Shown: piece after piece, positions 1 through 37,130 of the stretch | How positions within the stretch are numbered: position 1 is the stretch's first letter | How the letters are laid out: each line of letters opens with the position of its first letter | Source: Clostridiaceae bacterium | Lineage (GTDB): Bacteria; Bacillota; Clostridia; Saccharofermentanales; Saccharofermentanaceae | DNA length: 51,562 bases | Assembly: GCA_012838315.1 (NCBI GenBank) | Contig: DUPM01000032.1 | Span: forward strand, 1-51,562 | Direction of reading: 5' to 3' | Notes under the pieces: model-generated | The model's database searches: none | What the model was told of the DNA's origin: nothing | What the model saw: only the letters and a program-made list of their open reading frames with translations | Position numbers and translations under genes: made by a program

Positions 1-1409
1 AAAACGACACCGTCTACACCTACGACGATAACGGCGCCCTCATCGCCGTCACCGGCCCGGACCGCTCGGCGGAATACACGTACAACGACCTCGGCCGCAT
101 GAGCACGGCAACCGTCACCGCAAACGGCACCACAATCACGGAAAGCTACCTCTACGACTGGGCCGGCACCCGCACCGCGAAAATCACCGACGGCGTCCTC
201 ACCTATTACCTGGTCGACACCGCAGGCGTCCTCTCGCAGGTCCTCGCCGAACTCGATCATACCGGCGCGCTCATCACCCATTACACCCGAGGATCGGAAC
301 TCATCAGCCTCTCGCGCGCGAGCGAAAAGCGCTTCTACCTCCACGACGGTCAAGGCTCCGTCCGCGCCCTCTCGGACACAGACGGGCAAGTGACCGATAC
401 CTACATTTACGACGCGTTCGGCAATCTCCTATCGAAAACCGGCACCACCGCAAACGACTTCCTCTACACCGGCGAGCAGTACGATGCCAATACCGGCTTC
501 TACTACCTGCGCGCCCGCTATATGAATCCCTCGACGGGCACCTTCACATCGATGGATGCCTATGCCGGAACGATTTTCGATCCGGTCTCCCTGCACAAGT
601 ATCTTTACGCCAACGCGAATCCGGTCATGAATAGGGATCCGAGTGGGTATTTTACGCTGACAGAGATGGAAACGGCAGTCGCAATACAGGCAATTATCGG
701 TGCGGCGTTGAACTCGATTCCGAGCGGTATTTCGCGTCTTTTGAATGGTGCGCCGCTGGACGGAAATTTCTGGTTAACATTTACAGGTGATTTTGCATTA
801 GGGTTAACGATGGGTATTGGATTCGGCTGGCTTGGATTTCTTGCGACGAAATACCTTCTGGCGTGCTGCTTGCTCCGCAGTATTTTTGGTACAATGGGTT
901 TAGGGTTTACTTGGAACTTCATTCAAGATGTATCGAACGGAGATTGGGGTCGAGCTGTACTGAACGCCTTTGGTGCGATTACCTCGTTTTTGGGTGCATC
1001 GACGAACTTCTATCAAGGTGGCGGCTTAGGGAATCACGGAGGCGGGTCAAGTTCCGGCGTTGTAGCGGATGACGCGGCAGGGGCAGCGGATGATGTTGCG
1101 AATGTTGTGGACGATGCAACGAATGTTGCAAGTGATACGCGAACAAACCACATTCTATATGGAGACGAAACAGGTGGAGGACATTTGTGGCCCGGACAGC
1201 AGGGAAAGTCATCTTTTCCACAAAATTGGGATGCAAATACTGTAATGAAAAATATATCAGACATAGCTACCGATCCAACATTAACATGGACTCCTGGCAG
1301 AGTGATAAATGGTGTCCAAAGATATGAGGTTGTAGGAGTACGAGATGGAATTGCGATAAAAGTGATCACAGACGCAAATGATATTATTACAGCGTTTCCA
1401 ATTGGATAG
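1..1409 (+). CDS. Rhs/YD-repeat polymorphic toxin, 3' part, with C-terminal EndoU-like RNase domain (5' end outside window)
   Basis: The reading frame is open from base 3, so the start lies upstream of the window. The first part has YD-type repeats (for example YTYDDNG and YTYNDLG) and an Rhs-associated core (nt ~330-650: YLHDGQGSVRALSD, then GFYYLRARYMNP) that ends at the usual DPSG boundary near nt 636-650. A hydrophobic Gly/Phe/Leu-rich stretch (nt ~730-950) follows, probably the pre-toxin region. The tip (nt ~1146-1406) has NHILYGD, GGGHLWPG and a terminal ITAFP; this His...His...Thr layout is that of bacterial EndoU nucleases. GC drops sharply after the core, as expected when toxin tips are exchanged. 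Such proteins are secreted or surface-bound and cut RNA in competing cells. The Rhs call is firm; the EndoU call is by motif only. Confidence 0.88.
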   Translation, partial: NDTVYTYDDNGALIAVTGPDRSAEYTYNDLGRMSTATVTANGTTITESYLYDWAGTRTAKITDGVLTYYLVDTAGVLSQVLAELDHTGALITHYTRGSELISLSRASEKRFYLHDGQGSVRALSDTDGQVTDTYIYDAFGNLLSKTGTTANDFLYTGEQYDANTGFYYLRARYMNPSTGTFTSMDAYAGTIFDPVSLHKYLYANANPVMNRDPSGYFTLTEMETAVAIQAIIGAALNSIPSGISRLLNGAPLDGNFWLTFTGDFALGLTMGIGFGWLGFLATKYLLACCLLRSIFGTMGLGFTWNFIQDVSNGDWGRAVLNAFGAITSFLGASTNFYQGGGLGNHGGGSSSGVVADDAAGAADDVANVVDDATNVASDTRTNHILYGDETGGGHLWPGQQGKSSFPQNWDANTVMKNISDIATDPTLTWTPGRVINGVQRYEVVGVRDGIAIKVITDANDIITAFPIG

Positions 1410-15286: not shown

Positions 15287-16510
15287 TCAAGAAGATGATG
15301 ACGGATTGTTGCGTGCGTTCAGGAGTTTCTGGATTTTTTCGGTCGGGTTAATGAGATTGGACAAAGAGGCATCGTGATTAATTGCATCAATCAGCAATGC
15401 GACGAACTTCGTGAGATTGACATCATAGAACCAAGGTGCGTTGATGAGTTCCGGGCGTCTGTAAATGAGGTTAGTTGCAAATACTTTGCTGATTATACCC
15501 TTTTCGTAAGCATCTTGAAAATGATCTATCCCCTCGGTGAATAATCCAAAGGTGACCGCACAATAGATGTTTCTGGCACCACGGTTCTTCATCTCGGTGG
15601 CGATATCAAGGATGGAATCACCGGATGAGATCATATCATCGACAATAAGTATATCCATACCCTCAACCGAATCACCAAGAAATTCATGAGCGATAATCGG
15701 ATTGCGTCCGTTGACGACTTGTGTATAATCTCTACGCTTATAAAAAGTGCCGAGAGGGACGCCGAGGACAGAAGCCATGTACATGGCGCGGGTGATACCG
15801 CCCTCGTCCGGGCTGACGATCATAAACTTATCGCCGGAGAGATCCAGATCCGGAATGGCGCGGAACATTTCCTTAATAATCTGATAAGATGCAGAAAGAC
15901 TTTCGAAACCGGAAGTCGGAATCGCATTGGCAACACGCTCGTCATGTGCGTCAAAAGTAATAATATTCTCAACGCCGAGGTTGTATATTTCTTCGAGGGC
16001 GAATGCGCAATCGAGCGATTCTCTGGCATTGCGTTTGTGCTGACGACTCTCGTACAAGAAAGGCATGATGACATTGATTCGTCGTGCTTTTCCCGAGCAA
16101 GCCAAGATGACGCGCTTTAAATCTTGGTAGTGATCGTCCGGGCTCATGTTGTTTTCCGTGCCGAACATTTTATACGTGCAAGAGAAATTCATGACATCGC
16201 TGATGATGAAAAGGTCGTGTCCGCGAACAGAGTTTGTGATGACGGCCTTGCCTTCGCCGGATGAAAAACGCGTATTATTCACATCAATGCGATAATCGGA
16301 GCGAAAGAAACCCGGATACTTGCTGATGAGCTGGTGCTCTTGATATTCGGATCGTCTTTTATTCAGAAAATAATTAACGCTGTCTGAAAACTCGATACTG
16401 CCCTTAAGCGGAATAATGCCGATTGGGCCGACGGGAGCCATAGGATTATCACCGTACTGATTATATCTCGAATAGGCTTTCTCGTCTGCATTGAATGATG
16501 TCGGATTCAT
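15287..16510 (-). CDS. prs: ribose-phosphate pyrophosphokinase (PRPP synthetase), second tandem copy
   Basis: 407 residues, ~90 longer than the classic enzyme. Recognisable parts are RGHDLFIISDVM, KARRINVIMPFLYESRQHKRNARESLD (ATP-loop region), FDAHDERVANAIP with the catalytic His, VSPDEGGITRA and the PRPP loop LIVDDMISSGDSILDIAT. The additional length is an N-terminal stretch and C-terminal NAPWFYDVNLTKFVALLIDAI. It makes PRPP from ribose-5-phosphate and ATP. About half of its residues match the copy upstream by eye. Long PRPP synthetases of this kind occur in Clostridia. It is followed at once by the decarboxylase beta gene. Confidence 0.88.
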   Translation of the reverse strand: MNPTSFNADEKAYSRYNQYGDNPMAPVGPIGIIPLKGSIEFSDSVNYFLNKRRSEYQEHQLISKYPGFFRSDYRIDVNNTRFSSGEGKAVITNSVRGHDLFIISDVMNFSCTYKMFGTENNMSPDDHYQDLKRVILACSGKARRINVIMPFLYESRQHKRNARESLDCAFALEEIYNLGVENIITFDAHDERVANAIPTSGFESLSASYQIIKEMFRAIPDLDLSGDKFMIVSPDEGGITRAMYMASVLGVPLGTFYKRRDYTQVVNGRNPIIAHEFLGDSVEGMDILIVDDMISSGDSILDIATEMKNRGARNIYCAVTFGLFTEGIDHFQDAYEKGIISKVFATNLIYRRPELINAPWFYDVNLTKFVALLIDAINHDASLSNLINPTEKIQKLLNARNNPSSSS

Positions 16511-16538
16511 GATGTAGTCCCCCTAAAGTGATCCATTT

Positions 16539-17765
16539 TTATTCGAAAAGCTCTCCGATACGAATTTGGTTCAAGAGATCTGATATTTTGCAACTTGGGT
16601 TAATAAGTGCACCCAATGACTCATCGACGTTAATGGCGTCAATCAGTCGGGCGACAAAGGGTGTCATGTTAACGTCGACAAACCATGGTGCATTCAAAAG
16701 CTCGGGTTTGCGGTATATGAGATTGGTACAAAGCACTTGCTTAATGATGCCCTTTTCAACTGCTTCTTGCATGGCCCCGATTCCGTTTGTGAAAAGCCCA
16801 AAAGGTGCGATACAGTAAATATCTTTCGCGCCATTTTCATGCATTACGGTTGCCGTATTGATCATCGTCTTGCCGGAATTGATCATGTCATCGATGATGA
16901 GCACATCACGGCCTTCGATGGGTTCGCCCAAGAAACGCAGCTCTTTGATCGGGTGCTCACCTTCCACGCTGACAGAATAATCTCTGTGCCGATAGAATAC
17001 ACCGAGCGGTGCACCCATAAGAGATGAATAAAATATCGCTCTTGGAATACCGGATTCATCCGGACTGACAACCATCATGGAATCGCGGTCTATCTTGAGA
17101 CTCGGATTAACAGCAATCAGCGTGCTGATTGCCTTGAAAGCAGACTTCGGCATCTCGATGCCCATCAGAGGCACCGCGTTAACAATGCGCGGATCGTGTG
17201 GATCGAAAATAATCAGATTAGCAACACCAAGTTGGTATAACTGCTGAAGCATAGCGGCACAATCTAAAGATTCCCGTGCATGACGATTGTCCTGCCGACC
17301 TTCGTAAAGAAACGGCATGATGACGTTGATTCGACGCGCTTTGCCACTCGCGGCCATAATAATCCGAAGGAGATCACGAAAATGATCATCCGGACTGGTG
17401 CGATGCGCTTCTGAAAAAATTGGGAATGTCGCCTGGTGGGATAATACGTCTGTAATTATGAAAAGATCGTGACCTCTAACGGTCTGATTCAATGTCACTT
17501 TGCCTTCTCCGGTCGTAAATCGAACAATTTGGGATTGTATCAGATAGTCCTTACGAAGGTAACCCGCACTGTCGACGTATGGGTTAATATGTTCATTCTT
17601 ACGCTTCAGACGCTTCTCGTATAGAATGTCGTTCACTTGACGAACAAAAGCCTCGTTCGCCGTATGAGCAATAATGCCAATCGGTCCGAAAGGCTCCAAA
17701 AGGTATCCTTGATAGTCTGAAGAAGGGGCGATAATCTCTTGGTTATTTGGTGACGCTGTCATCAT
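16539..17765 (-). CDS. prs: ribose-phosphate pyrophosphokinase (PRPP synthetase), first tandem copy
   Basis: 408 residues. Same layout as its neighbour: RGHDLFIITDVL, KARRINVIMPFLYEGRQDNRHARESLD, FDPHDPRIVNAVP, VSPDESGIPRA and PRPP loop LIIDDMINSGKTMINTAT. The ATP loop keeps RQD as in classic enzymes, whereas copy two has RQH. Both could be active; a regulatory or hetero-oligomeric split, as in eukaryotic PRPP synthetase/associated-protein pairs, is possible. It is first in the minus-strand operon that runs to rqcH. Confidence 0.88.
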   Translation of the reverse strand: MMTASPNNQEIIAPSSDYQGYLLEPFGPIGIIAHTANEAFVRQVNDILYEKRLKRKNEHINPYVDSAGYLRKDYLIQSQIVRFTTGEGKVTLNQTVRGHDLFIITDVLSHQATFPIFSEAHRTSPDDHFRDLLRIIMAASGKARRINVIMPFLYEGRQDNRHARESLDCAAMLQQLYQLGVANLIIFDPHDPRIVNAVPLMGIEMPKSAFKAISTLIAVNPSLKIDRDSMMVVSPDESGIPRAIFYSSLMGAPLGVFYRHRDYSVSVEGEHPIKELRFLGEPIEGRDVLIIDDMINSGKTMINTATVMHENGAKDIYCIAPFGLFTNGIGAMQEAVEKGIIKQVLCTNLIYRKPELLNAPWFVDVNMTPFVARLIDAINVDESLGALINPSCKISDLLNQIRIGELFE

Positions 17766-33620: not shown

Positions 33621-33908
33621 ATGTCAACATTGCAATCTGCATTATGCTTTACAATCGTATTTTTCATCGTCATGTACTGTATCGCTGTCGGTCCGATTCT
33701 CTTTATACGAGCGGATTCAAATGCGAGGCTTTTCGCGCTCTACAAGAATAATCTCGTCAAGAATAAGGACGTTATATGCACGGATACTATCGAGTACGGT
33801 TCAGCAACGGCTGATACCGTGTATTGTTCTGCCGAGCGATTGCAGTACATCATTTATGCAATCACTGATTCCGTGAAGATTGTTGTCAGGGAGGTGAAGT
33901 CATTTTGA
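33621..33908 (+). CDS. small membrane protein, Tad/pseudopilin-like cluster
   Basis: 95 residues. One N-terminal hydrophobic segment (ALCFTIVFFIVMYCIAVGPILF) and a ~65-residue outer part with two Cys (VICTD, VYCSAE). No signal peptidase site and no Glu at the pilin position are clear. Family not recognised; it is placed with the cluster because its stop overlaps the next start by 4 nt (33905-33908). Shine-Dalgarno AGGAGGT is locked in the hairpin described above. Confidence 0.7.
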   Translation: MSTLQSALCFTIVFFIVMYCIAVGPILFIRADSNARLFALYKNNLVKNKDVICTDTIEYGSATADTVYCSAERLQYIIYAITDSVKIVVREVKSF

Positions 33909-35296
33909 ACAATAAGCGTGGTGGCATTGTTATCTTTCTTAGCATCGTTCTCAGTGCAGTAATTTTGGTTCAGACAATCCTCTTTTCAGGAATAGCGCTT
34001 CGATATAGAGAAATTGAAGCAAGAAGAACCATGCAACTCCAAGCTGAATATCTTCTTAGCGATTATAATGAGTCACTTCTGAAACACTATGGATTATATG
34101 GTTTGAATCACGTGGGGACAGATTTTTCAGTTTTTAAAAGGACGAACCGATTCTCAGAAAATGCGGTTCTTTCATGTGATGTTATTGATAAATTATCTTC
34201 GGAAGCTCTTGAAAAGGCAATTGCGGATTATATGACACTTAGATATCCAACGATTGTGGTTTCAGACATCGCCTCGAGAATAGCAGGGGCGATTAATGAA
34301 GTTAAAAGTAGTTCCATATATAACAGTGGTTCGAAGAAGTCATTTTCGTGGATGAATCAACTCAAAACTATTATGGGAGATTCAGAAAATTGGATGTGGG
34401 CGATTGAGGGCCTAGAGGCCGTTGTAGATACCATTGATTTCAACGATAAACTGGATGATTTCTATGATTTCATAGATAATTTGAAAACTGTTGTCGAACG
34501 GAGTGCAACACTGACATTTCAGGACGAGGATGGAACCGATCAAGAATTGAACGTATTTGATCCGACATCCTTTACGCTCCTCATGGAATTCCTTTCAGGA
34601 TCGATACAGGGAACTGACAACGAGGTGCTAAATCATTTGTATATTAATGCCTACGCCGTTAATTTTTTTGACTCACGTTTAGAGAATACTTATTTTGATG
34701 GCGAAGCATTTCCGGAATGTAACGTTTACGGGACACCATTTTCTGAGATTAATACCGTTAATCATTCGGATATTGAATATATGCTTACCGGTGCTCAAAG
34801 TACTTTCGGAGCGAATTTCCAAACATCATCGCTCATATTTCTTGTTCGCGCAATTTCGAATCTTTCTACCTTTTTACTGGATGAGGTCAAAGTCTATAAA
34901 GCGCAGGGTGTTGCGGAGGTTTTGTGTATGGTTGTTGCACTTTTGTCTGCGGGAACTGTTGTAATAGACCCTGTATCTGCGCAATACGCCATTTTATTGA
35001 TATGGGCGATGACCATATCTTTTAAGGATGTTGACCAACTCAAATCCGGAAAGACTGTAAGTTTGTTGCATCACAGCAAGGTTGAGGATGGTGCGATCGG
35101 TAGTGCCCTCATGACGAATTATAAGGATTATGTTTCATTTTTTATGTTGTTTGTAAGTGACGACAAGATTTTGAAACGCATGTTGAAAATACTTGAACGT
35201 ATTAATGGTGGAGACATAAATATAGCCATCGAATTGGAACTTACGGATCAGGATCACACGTATGTCTTGGAGGATGGATATGATCTATACAAGTAA
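33905..35296 (+). CDS. DUF5702/TadG-like membrane-anchored protein
   Basis: 463 residues from TTG with GGGAGG. N-terminal membrane anchor RGGIVIFLSIVLSAVILVQTILFSG, followed by REIEARRTMQLQAEYLLSDYNESLLKHYGLYGLN, a segment typical of clostridial Tad-locus proteins of the DUF5702 type. The middle is rich in acidic helices; a second hydrophobic region (residues ~340-375) lies near the end. Probably a minor pilin-like or envelope protein facing outward. No TadA ATPase, TadB/C platform or prepilin peptidase gene is in the window. Confidence 0.65.
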   Translation: MNNKRGGIVIFLSIVLSAVILVQTILFSGIALRYREIEARRTMQLQAEYLLSDYNESLLKHYGLYGLNHVGTDFSVFKRTNRFSENAVLSCDVIDKLSSEALEKAIADYMTLRYPTIVVSDIASRIAGAINEVKSSSIYNSGSKKSFSWMNQLKTIMGDSENWMWAIEGLEAVVDTIDFNDKLDDFYDFIDNLKTVVERSATLTFQDEDGTDQELNVFDPTSFTLLMEFLSGSIQGTDNEVLNHLYINAYAVNFFDSRLENTYFDGEAFPECNVYGTPFSEINTVNHSDIEYMLTGAQSTFGANFQTSSLIFLVRAISNLSTFLLDEVKVYKAQGVAEVLCMVVALLSAGTVVIDPVSAQYAILLIWAMTISFKDVDQLKSGKTVSLLHHSKVEDGAIGSALMTNYKDYVSFFMLFVSDDKILKRMLKILERINGGDINIAIELELTDQDHTYVLEDGYDLYK

Positions 35297-36362
35297 GAGA
35301 AGGGAAGAGCTGTATCAATGTTGCGTCAGCAAACGAGCATCTGTAGTATTGGAAGCCGCAATCGCAGCCCCTATTTTCATCTCAGTGATAGCGATAATTC
35401 TTATTGCGGTAAATCTTGTGAGAACAGAAGTTATTTTTACCCATGCTGTGGATCAAGTATCAAATGAGTTGAGCTTGGCCTTCCCGGTTATGGATGCCGG
35501 AGCAATGGCAATTGACTCTTCAATTGAAGCAATATGCGCTTTTGCCGGCGAATCCGAAGAAGAGAACGGAGAAGCCGGGCATATGAGCACATTGTTGGAG
35601 AATGCCGGTAACGTAACCGGTATAATAACCGCTGTGTTCAACCATTTGGACATCAACTTGGAGGATATTGTTTCAACCGCGATATTCGGTGAGTATGTGA
35701 AAACAAGGATTGAATCTGAGTTTGAGAGGCTTGGCGAGAATAATCTTATTGTTGATCCTATAGAGGATATTAGCGTGTATCTCGACTTTAACAAAATTGC
35801 ACATGTATTGAATATCAGGGTATACTACAAACTCGTTTCGCCATTTGGTTCGAAGGAGAAGATGATTGCTACGAGCGCTGCGGTGTACGGCGAGTTGTTT
35901 TATGACATTCTTGAAAATGGTGATTCGCAGAAAAATTCAAAAATCTGGGACGAGACAAATTTTAACCGAGGCATCTACTTCAGAAATGAATTTGGCGCGA
36001 ACTTGCCCTTTTCATATCCTGTCATAGCGGGTTGGAACAATGGGACGGCAACATCTATAAAGAGTGTGGATCTGACTGCACCCACCTACGAATCCGATGA
36101 AGAAATAGTGGATAAGATAAGCAGGCATATAGATGAATTAGCGGGTTTTTCCGGTACGGAGGAGCCGTGGGGACAAGACAAAATCAGTATCGATGAATCT
36201 GATATTTCCTCAAGAGAGCTTATAGTGATTATTCCCGAAAATACGCCTGAGGACAGGAGGTGCGTTCTTGAAGAATGTATTAGCGTGGCGGAGGAGAAAG
36301 GGATTGTTCTTATAATAGAAACATTCGGAGTCTCAGAAAAATACTCTGAATTGCAAACTTAA
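35280..36362 (+). CDS. TadE-like pseudopilin protein
   Basis: 360 residues from the ATG at 35280, six bases after GGAGG; upstream in-frame ATGs at 35262 and 35274 lack spacing. The N-terminal segment RASVVLEAAIAAPIFISVIAIILIAVNL has the Glu-5-type TadE/pilin layout. The C-terminal half (FNRGIYFRNEFG, IKSVDLTAPTY, ELIVIIPENTPED) resembles conserved parts of clostridial Tad-cluster proteins. It overlaps the previous gene by 17 nt. Likely processed or anchored in the membrane; function unknown. Confidence 0.7.
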   Translation: MIYTSKRREELYQCCVSKRASVVLEAAIAAPIFISVIAIILIAVNLVRTEVIFTHAVDQVSNELSLAFPVMDAGAMAIDSSIEAICAFAGESEEENGEAGHMSTLLENAGNVTGIITAVFNHLDINLEDIVSTAIFGEYVKTRIESEFERLGENNLIVDPIEDISVYLDFNKIAHVLNIRVYYKLVSPFGSKEKMIATSAAVYGELFYDILENGDSQKNSKIWDETNFNRGIYFRNEFGANLPFSYPVIAGWNNGTATSIKSVDLTAPTYESDEEIVDKISRHIDELAGFSGTEEPWGQDKISIDESDISSRELIVIIPENTPEDRRCVLEECISVAEEKGIVLIIETFGVSEKYSELQT

Positions 36363-36457
36363 ACGAGAGTGATATCCCAAGTATTTGATTAATATCGTCG
36401 AAAGATGCTAATTGGTTTGAAAGTATGTCATTGATTCGGGTCAAGGAGTGAGGCTGA

Positions 36458-36508
36458 ATGTTGACATTTGAAGTATCAAGGATTGTAACCTTAAGTCTCT
36501 TGCGGTAA
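36458..36508 (+). CDS. possible 16-residue leader ORF
   Basis: MLTFEVSRIVTLSLLR, preceded by AAGGAG (36443-36448) with 9-nt spacing. It lies in the 190-nt gap between the TadE-like gene and the next small gene and its stop overlaps a candidate -10. Only the good ribosome site supports it; it may be chance. Confidence 0.25.
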   Translation: MLTFEVSRIVTLSLLR

Positions 36509-36511
36509 TAT
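36483..36511 (+). promoter_or_regulatory. candidate promoter for the small membrane gene, yerC and secA
   Basis: TTGTAA (36483-36488), 17-nt spacer, TAATAT (36506-36511), 42 nt ahead of the TTG start. Confidence 0.4.
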
Positions 36512-36552
36512 ATGTATGTTTGTTTTGTGAGATAAATTTACGGAGGTATGCC

Positions 36553-36795
36553 TTGAGACAAGCCAAAAACAAAGTTCGGATGCCTGCATATATGAGATCA
36601 GGTTATGTCGAGAGTCAAAATGACGCTGAACTGAGTGTCGGCGATGTATTACGAAAAGCCAACAGACGTTTGATTGTTCGCCAAATTATATGGGTTGCAT
36701 TTTATTTATTGATCATAGGAGCCTTAATATACGGCTTTCTTTCGGGCAATTTTGAAAAAGCGACGGACTATATTATTGATTTATTTATAAAATAG
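36553..36795 (+). CDS. small single-span membrane protein
   Basis: 80 residues from TTG at 36553, six bases after CGGAGG; the frame opens earlier but without a ribosome site. A basic cytoplasmic half (RQAKNKVRMPAYMRSGY, VLRKANRRLIVRQ) is followed by one membrane helix (IIWVAFYLLIIGALIYGFL) and a short acidic end. Not recognised. It lies just before yerC and secA, 15 nt from the former, and may be co-transcribed. Confidence 0.65.
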   Translation: MRQAKNKVRMPAYMRSGYVESQNDAELSVGDVLRKANRRLIVRQIIWVAFYLLIIGALIYGFLSGNFEKATDYIIDLFIK

Positions 36796-36809
36796 CTACG
36801 AGGATGCAG

Positions 36810-37130
36810 ATGAAAGACAAATGGAAGGATTCAACTACGGATATATTGTGCGATGCAATATTATCGCTTCAGTCTCGAGAGGAGTGTTATCAACTTTTCG
36901 AGGATCTTTGTACTGTATCAGAGATTAAGTCTTTGGCACAGCGTCTTCATATCGCATCTTTACTATCTAAGGGGTATACCTATTCTGATATTTCTGTTGC
37001 GACCGGTGTCAGTACCGCTACCATCAGTCGTGTCAATCGTTGTCTGGAATACGGAGCCGATGGCTATAAAAGTGTGCTATCTAAAATCGACGATAATAAA
37101 AATAATACTAATATTAAAGGGGATAAATAA
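36810..37130 (+). CDS. yerC: YerC/YecD-family TrpR-like regulator
   Basis: 106 residues. TrpR-type helix-turn-helix: EIKSLAQRLHIASLLSKGYTYSDISVATGVSTATISRVNRCLEYGADGYK. The ATG at 36810 is six bases from ACGAGG, better than the one at 36804. The YerC family controls unknown targets; several Bacillota carry it next to other housekeeping genes. Its stop overlaps the secA start by one base (TAATG). Confidence 0.88.
   Translation: MKDKWKDSTTDILCDAILSLQSREECYQLFEDLCTVSEIKSLAQRLHIASLLSKGYTYSDISVATGVSTATISRVNRCLEYGADGYKSVLSKIDDNKNNTNIKGDK

Follow-up and report, generated by a model that had tools for sequence, protein, structure and literature searches.

Tad pili occur in many bacteria, and what a pilus does is believed to depend on its tip (PMC12075869; papers are cited here by PMC number, from excerpts of their text). 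The tip complex of Myxococcus consists of three minor pilins whose outer domains vary, an arrangement that the authors of that work extend to TadEFG (PMC12075869). CpaL, predicted to be a minor pilin, carries a vWA domain (PMC12607857). A tad locus of Bacillota encodes TadE and TadF proteins with extra C-terminal domains whose fold was not named in the excerpt (PMC12786226). In Micrococcus luteus, one gene cluster encodes a fused TadB and TadC and a second cluster TadE/F-like proteins; both clusters are required, and neither Flp pili nor transformation is possible without the TadE/F-like genes (PMC4322843). Prepilins use Sec and prepilin peptidases (PMC3244431). Here we describe a gene block of a Clostridiaceae bacterium, located on a contig of 51,562 nucleotides (DUPM01000032.1, assembly GCA_012838315.1; the whole contig is termed the window), in which a TadE-like prepilin ends in a nuclease-fold domain of a toxin family. 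We consider the block to be the minor-pilin (priming or tip) module of a split Tad pilus, in which the toxin-type domain now serves as a non-cutting binding module, and put the probability of this reading at roughly three in four.

The block resembles the TadE/F/G sets, including KilLMN of the Kil system and CpaJ/K/L of Caulobacter, in its three adjacent genes in the place of minor pilins, in the prepilin motif on the third of them and in its linkage to tad genes in relatives. It differs in being split from the tad core, in lying by secA and in its TadE-like protein lacking a match to PF07811, the TadE family. Unlike the Kil and Cpa tips, which carry KilN or vWA domains, it has an extra domain with the fold of a contact-dependent inhibition (CDI) nuclease. 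This domain shares its profile (PF21111), its fold and the active-site Ser and Lys with the CdiA-CT toxins EC869/TA271 (4G6U) and YPIII (4ZQU); in contrast to these toxins, its catalytic Glu and Asp are replaced, it has no credible immunity gene, it is joined to a prepilin and the same end recurs across an order. The Micrococcus luteus system is likewise a Gram-positive Tad pilus with TadE/F-like genes in a separate cluster, whereas the excerpt of its description makes no mention of a nuclease-fold domain (PMC4322843). Among open PMC papers, nothing was found on DUF5702, on PF21111 or the CDI toxin EC869, or on TadE with CdiA, and we found no earlier report there of a fusion of TadE with PF21111. 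A word search of an excerpted survey of polymorphic toxins for TadE, pilin or pilus gave no hit (PMC3482391).

The window corresponds to contig C137 in a genome of 2.14 Mb that comprises 163 contigs and is about 95% complete. The block sits between pheT and yerC-secA (pheS, pheT, secA, metK and atp were named from translations, yerC by an NCBIfam match), and its first three genes overlap on the forward strand, as the first-pass annotation of this DNA had described; the overlaps are 4 bases between genes 1 and 2 and 35 bases between genes 2 and 3. Gene 1 (33621-33908, +) encodes a single-span protein of 95 amino acids with no Pfam match up to E 1; we surmise from its position that it stands in for the small minor pilin, TadE-like, that complete tad operons encode there. 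Gene 2 (33905-35296, +, TTG start), which occupies the place of a TadG-like gene, encodes a protein of 463 amino acids that matches DUF5702 (PF18960; E 7.5e-16; 58.4 bits, cut-off 26), which confirms its earlier assignment to DUF5702. Its AlphaFold 2 (AF2) model (predicted local distance difference test, pLDDT, 73.5) shows a long predicted N-terminal helix (residues 4-51), and the model had no match with E < 0.001 in the PDB. Gene 3 (35262-36362, +) encodes the TadE-like prepilin of 366 amino acids, fused to the nuclease-fold domain.

The segment VLEAAIAAPIF occupies residues 29-39 of the third protein and overlaps a class III prepilin motif, A26-SVVL-E31 (35337-35354, +), which fits G/A-x4-E before a hydrophobic helix, with a predicted cleavage after A26 and Glu at +5. 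Because of this motif and of homology to a PF07811-scoring protein from outside the order, at locus L203, we retain the label TadE-like, which the first-pass annotation had already applied, although the protein itself has no PF07811 match. Among the homologues, PF07811 scored 24.8 bits at L203 against a cut-off of 22.9, and 14.7 bits, below the cut-off, at a second locus, L213. The modelled N-terminal part of the protein gave VIA-align Z scores of up to 7.7 only, which is in the range of common arrangements.

The C-terminal domain of the third protein (residues 224-356; 35931-36329, +) was overlooked in the first-pass annotation. Residues 259-352 match PF21111 (CDI_toxin_EC869_like; E 5e-11; 43.4 bits, cut-off 27), and the profile and the predicted structure together point to a PD-(D/E)XK fold of the CdiA-CT EC869/TA271 type. 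The AF2 model was template-free and built with 14 sequences; its mean pLDDT is 68.9, with values of 85-91 in the blocks 261-300 and 311-360 and of 78-79 in residues 241-260, where R241 and A256 lie. A Foldseek search with this model returned only two matches with E < 0.001, 4g6u (E 2.3e-08) and 4zqu, both CdiA-CT toxins, from E. coli and Y. pseudotuberculosis. VIA-align 2 superposed the model on 4g6u with a Z of 16.4 (1.9 Å over 128 residues, 23% identity) and on 4zqu with a Z of 14.4, while the next row, at 7.7, covered another part of the model. Across the order, the mean identity to the window protein (56 rows including the window) was highest in this domain, 0.41 compared with 0.34, 0.15 and 0.25 in the other parts.

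The active site of both CdiA-CT toxins, which are Zn-dependent DNases, consists of E177, D198, S209 and K211 (PMC9086364). In the alignment, Arg241 (35982-35984, +) takes the place of Glu177 and Ala256 (36027-36029, +) that of Asp198, while Ser265 and Lys267 (Ser265-Lys267 codons, 36054-36062, +) align with Ser209 and Lys211 and are kept; the window thus reads R-A-S-K against E-D-S-K in the toxins. These positions were compared in 93 relatives from the order (L119 was dropped as a duplicate of the L196 contig, and L192 is masked in part), in 39 pilins from elsewhere in the class and in 11 toxin-like rows. The term toxin-like is a contextual label for proteins with no prepilin start, a long or RHS-like frame and an immunity-like neighbour. 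Ten of these rows came from a scan of named genomes with a pattern that includes S-I-K-S, and were from Micromonospora, Mesorhizobium, Chitinophagaceae, Paludibacteraceae and an Acidobacteria bin; none has a prepilin start, and in nine of them the domain ends the frame, the exception being L126, which continues into an immunity-like part. The eleventh, the RHS-type L199 (genome G381), was found without the pattern. The set is small, and Micromonospora contributes six of its 11 proteins, which are nearly identical to one another.

Both acids were present in all 11 toxin-like rows, in none of the 93 order relatives and in 12 of the 39 class pilins, and all four residues in 11/11, 0/93 and 2/39, respectively. 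Within the order, position 241 is Arg in 79 rows and Glu in 3, and position 256 is Ala in 31, Ser in 24, Asp in 20, Asn in 9 and Cys in 6; Ser is found at 265 in 61 rows and Lys at 267 in 48. The class pilins have Arg at 241 in 20 cases, Glu in 12, and Lys at 267 in 22. Since the catalytic Glu and Asp, two acids of the metal site, are replaced, with an Arg in the place of the Glu, the domain most likely binds without cutting. Other positions are retained: W229, R236, G237 and P253 are invariant in the unmasked rows of all three sets. N233 occurs in 90/93 order rows and 27/39 class pilins against 0/11 toxin-like rows, and N327 in 87/93, 22/39 and 1/11. The two class pilins with all four residues, L208 and L213 (genomes G176 and G226, of one genus code), are the only ones among 132 pilins to read E-D-S-K, and in them Asn replaces D270. 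Genome G381 holds both forms, the RHS-type L199 with an intact domain and a tad pilin, L233, reading R-A-S-K.

A tree of the domain was computed from 78 rows (every third order row, 31 including the window; seven misplaced or masked rows were omitted). The toxin-like rows clustered with a support of 49/96, and 27 of the 75 inner branches were open, so that the tree does not settle whether toxins gave rise to pilins or the reverse.

The first-pass annotation had described the cluster as lacking a motor or peptidase and had suggested that it may use a distant motor. The former applies to the window, where the profiles T2SSE, T2SSF and A24 had no match at E 0.001, and fails for the genome, while the latter is supported. 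T2SSE matches were found on contigs C93, C107 and C135 and T2SSF matches on C93 and C107 in the genome profile search. On C93, a run of five genes between metK and the ATP synthase genes encodes a protein of 315 amino acids, TadA, a TadB/C-like protein, an Flp1-like pilin (PF16982), taken to be the major pilin, and a protein with DUF6382 and FHA domains. The TadB/C-like protein has 531 amino acids, of which only the second half matches T2SSF (21.9 bits, below the cut-off of 25.2), and its length suggests a TadB/C fusion. An A24 prepilin peptidase is encoded on C123. TadA, TadB/C (below the cut-off), Flp and an A24 peptidase are thus all present in the genome. These searches recognised no minor pilins for the C93 core; the window encodes a set of them. 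C135 and C107 also carry genes resembling those of a type IV pilus, and a PilD-like protein with an A24_N domain is encoded on C135.

According to the first-pass annotation, the block would be a simple paralogue if the genome held, at another place, a complete tad operon that includes TadE and TadG. No such operon was found: the genome has one DUF5702 protein, one copy of the TadE-like protein and no PF07811 match, and the paralogue reading was rejected on these grounds.

Conservation was examined in 98 genomes, comprising the window's own and those of the same genus, family and order. TadA was matched in all 98 and the TadE-like protein in 94 (the misses being G011, G022, G049 and G077), a recurrence of the third gene beyond chance, and in 94/98 genomes the PF21111-type end was on the same pilin, at one place per genome. 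In the neighbourhoods of 94 order rows (window excluded; L119 repeats L196, both being one contig), 92 have a DUF5702 relative on the same strand, at a distance of 0.3-2.6 kb upstream of the domain, and 56 have gene 1 relatives 1.2-3.5 kb upstream of it. Downstream, secA was present in 90 and yerC in 71, and pheT was found upstream in 42; some of these stretches reach only 5 kb, and pheT is also absent where more than 8 kb upstream is available, e.g. in L044. Two genomes assembled as one contig, G060 and G063, have about 398 kb and 460 kb between the TadE-like gene and tadA, and the idea that the split results from the assembly was rejected for this reason.

Of 391 genomes sampled across the class, 51 gave a PF21111 match, among them that of the window. 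From these, and with L122 added from the pattern scan, 40 class rows were obtained (40 places outside the order were fetched; L200 was dropped as a sub-cut-off match with no domain), and 39 of them have DUF5702 upstream on the same strand, again at 0.3-2.6 kb, the exception being the RHS-type L199. In 9 of the 40, tadA and tadB/C also lie upstream on the same strand. The operon at L203 reads TadZ, TadA, TadB, TadC, Flp1-like, TadE, DUF5702, TadE fused to PF21111, A24 and DUF6382/FHA. Its small TadE is over the PF07811 cut-off, its fusion scores 59.7 bits with PF21111 and the TadZ receiver model is below its cut-off. At L213 the order is TadA, two T2SSF proteins, Flp1-like, TadE-like, DUF5702, the fusion and A24, with sub-cut-off TadE matches. 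The window fusion aligns with that of L203 over residues 25-356 (28% identity, E 1e-26), the two DUF5702 proteins match with E 4e-11, and the TadA of C93 is 50% identical to that of L203. The C93 run resembles the L203 operon with one contiguous stretch missing (that of the small TadE, DUF5702, TadE with PF21111, and peptidase); in the window, DUF5702 and the fusion follow each other as in L203, with the 95-residue protein in the place of the small TadE. Because the C93 core lacks recognisable minor pilins and a homologous block is part of full tad operons, we assign the window block to the minor pilins of the Tad system.

A [GAS]-x4-[ED] motif with a hydrophobic stretch was found in 88/93 order relatives, 39/39 class pilins and 1/11 toxin-like rows. 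The five misses in the order comprise two contig ends (L197, L198), one N-terminal part out of frame (L089), one masked row (L192) and one protein with Cys at -1 (L189). A stricter test gave 86/94, 38/40 and 0/10.

A putative working of the system can be outlined as follows. The proteins would enter the membrane via Sec, and the A24 peptidase would cleave the TadE-like prepilin after A26. The 95-residue, DUF5702 and TadE-like proteins may then form a tip or priming complex, from which TadA and TadB/C would extend the Flp filament. By analogy with the published tip complexes, the three proteins would both prime and cap this pilus. The TadE-like protein would display its last ~130 residues outward at the tip, where the domain is expected to bind its ligand without cutting.

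Several observations weigh against this picture of a Tad tip with a non-cutting domain. With regard to the pilus, PF07811 was absent from the third protein in Pfam up to E 1 and from the whole genome up to E 0.1, and no prepilin motif was seen by eye in the 95-residue protein. The protein of 315 amino acids in the tadZ place on C93 had no Pfam match and no similarity to the TadZ of L203, and the C123 peptidase had no similarity to the peptidase of L203. The co-occurrence of TadA and the TadE-like protein is weak evidence, since nearly all genomes carry both, and tadA was found within ~9.5 kb in none of the 94 order rows, many of the stretches being only 5 kb long. In addition, three DUF5702 places in the order (L043, L077 and L097) lack the PF21111 domain. 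There, tadA adjoins DUF5702 in L043 and L097 (genomes G085 and G046) and an FHA protein does so in L077; we regard the three as second tad loci, those of L043 and L097 with another tip. Compared with the same-genus relative, the C-terminal domain is less conserved (0.72) than residues 134-215 (0.80) and the helix (0.96). The proportions of nonsynonymous and synonymous differences over the whole protein (pN 0.16, pS 0.82) give no usable dN/dS for this pair because synonymous sites are saturated. With regard to the loss of cutting, Ser and Lys of the ten pattern-derived toxin-like rows were set by the search pattern, leaving only Glu and Asp free to vary. Moreover, 12 of the 39 class pilins have both acids, two of them with all four residues, and 19 of the 39 have no Arg at 241. 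Given that the window retains S265 and K267, that D256 is retained in 20/93 order relatives and that both acids occur in those 12 class pilins, catalysis is still compatible with the sequence taken alone.

Within the reading of the block as a Tad tip module, the ligand of the domain is a separate matter. DNA is our first guess, which we advance tentatively, another surface or a partner protein being the alternatives. A somewhat better case, still short of even odds, can be made for a scaffold or adhesive knob, which would hold the tip complex together, for example by binding DUF5702, or would bind a surface other than nucleic acid; this competes with the DNA guess only and leaves the pilus untouched. 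The catalytic positions drift in the pilins while W229, R236, G237, P253, S268 and P325 stay, and tip pilins with unrelated extra domains are known from CpaL (vWA; PMC12607857) and KilN (PMC12075869). However, N233 (90/93) and R241 (79/93) are conserved and lie in the predicted helix 233-243 of the model, at the site of the toxins' catalytic Glu, which suggests a retained binding site over a blank scaffold. A broader and rather doubtful proposal is that Clostridia turned an antibacterial DNase domain into a Tad tip grip that holds DNA uncut, many lineages having lost the metal-binding acids, often with Arg replacing the catalytic Glu. This would give pili that catch or take up DNA, and L208 and L213, with all four residues, would represent nuclease-tipped pili.

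Competence-related genes were also found. The window encodes a ComEC-type competence channel (PF03772; 18751-21255, +), and C36 encodes a ComEA-like domain; the two leave DNA uptake undecided because the type IV pilus-like cluster of C135 and C107 could serve competence too.

It is very improbable that the TadE-like protein is an active antibacterial effector, i.e. a pilus-tip nuclease for contact-dependent killing, as on the stalk of CdiA or as proposed for the Kil pilus of Myxococcus. The domain family and the predicted fold are common to the CdiA-CT DNases, killing on contact is mediated by the Kil type of Tad pilus, whose tips vary (PMC12075869), and the 12 class pilins with both acids include L208 and L213 with the complete set. 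On the other hand, the window lacks the catalytic Glu and Asp, as do all order relatives as a pair, and the domain is uniform across the order at one locus per genome and not a polymorphic end. The search for immunity genes pointed in the same direction. A profile was built from six immunity-like proteins of the toxin-like loci; three of the six were scanned against Pfam and gave weak CdiI matches, one of them over the cut-off. The profile was matched at 9 of the 11 toxin-like rows (six of the nine being its own sources) and missed L130 and L199, the latter with only ~490 bases downstream. At the pilin loci it matched only a frame of 63 amino acids in L075 (E 0.002), which is not credible, although a dissimilar immunity protein would escape it. 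A CdiI search of the window's genome gave no match, and no positive control gave a signal either. A polymorphic toxin was rejected as the principal interpretation on account of the residues, the immunity profile and the uniform conservation.

A self-contained envelope structure outside any Tad pilus, which the first-pass annotation had also envisaged, is likewise very improbable: the block does adjoin secA, away from the tad core, in most order loci (90/94), but a homologous block is found inside full tad operons, TadA is present in 98/98 genomes and the genome has no other DUF5702 or PF07811 protein that the C93 core could use.

The identification of a Tad minor pilin that ends in a toxin-family nuclease fold, conserved within one clostridial order and present in 13 other family codes of the class, gives DUF5702 and 38 of the 39 PF21111 places outside the order a pilus setting and not a toxin one. 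For these pilins, annotation as 'CDI toxin' after the Pfam name would be misleading, and a fold with a mostly altered active site offers a concrete, testable idea of tip binding.

Downstream of the three overlapping genes, gene 4 (36520-36795, +, TTG start, the true start being perhaps further in) encodes a basic single-span protein of 91 amino acids with no Pfam match; none of the four genes of the block matched NCBIfam. The protein is present as annotated before, outside the overlapping run and separated from gene 3 by 157 bases. Relatives of it occur between gene 3 and yerC in part of the relatives, and its membership in the cluster is uncertain. It is followed by yerC (36804-37130, +; TrpR-related, TIGR02531, E 2.4e-38), a common downstream neighbour outside the pilus set.

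Close to the tad core on C93 (stretch L009, 1782-5019, -) lie genes for a phosphoribosyltransferase (PF00156) and a helicase, which we take to be ComFC-like and RecD2-like and which are also close to metK. Near the start of the window, 99-1409 (+) encodes the end of an RHS-type protein (RHS repeat 19.2 bits, sub-cut-off) with a C-terminal EndoU nuclease (PF14436, E 1.9e-09), which is likely an antibacterial toxin. Two adjacent ribose-phosphate pyrophosphokinase-like genes (15287-17765, -) encode proteins of 407 and 408 amino acids, each matching three models of phosphoribosyl pyrophosphate (PRPP) synthase; this enzyme is usually smaller. At the other contig end, 51081-51548 (-) is a transposase-like open reading frame, presumably of the IS110 type as judged by eye.

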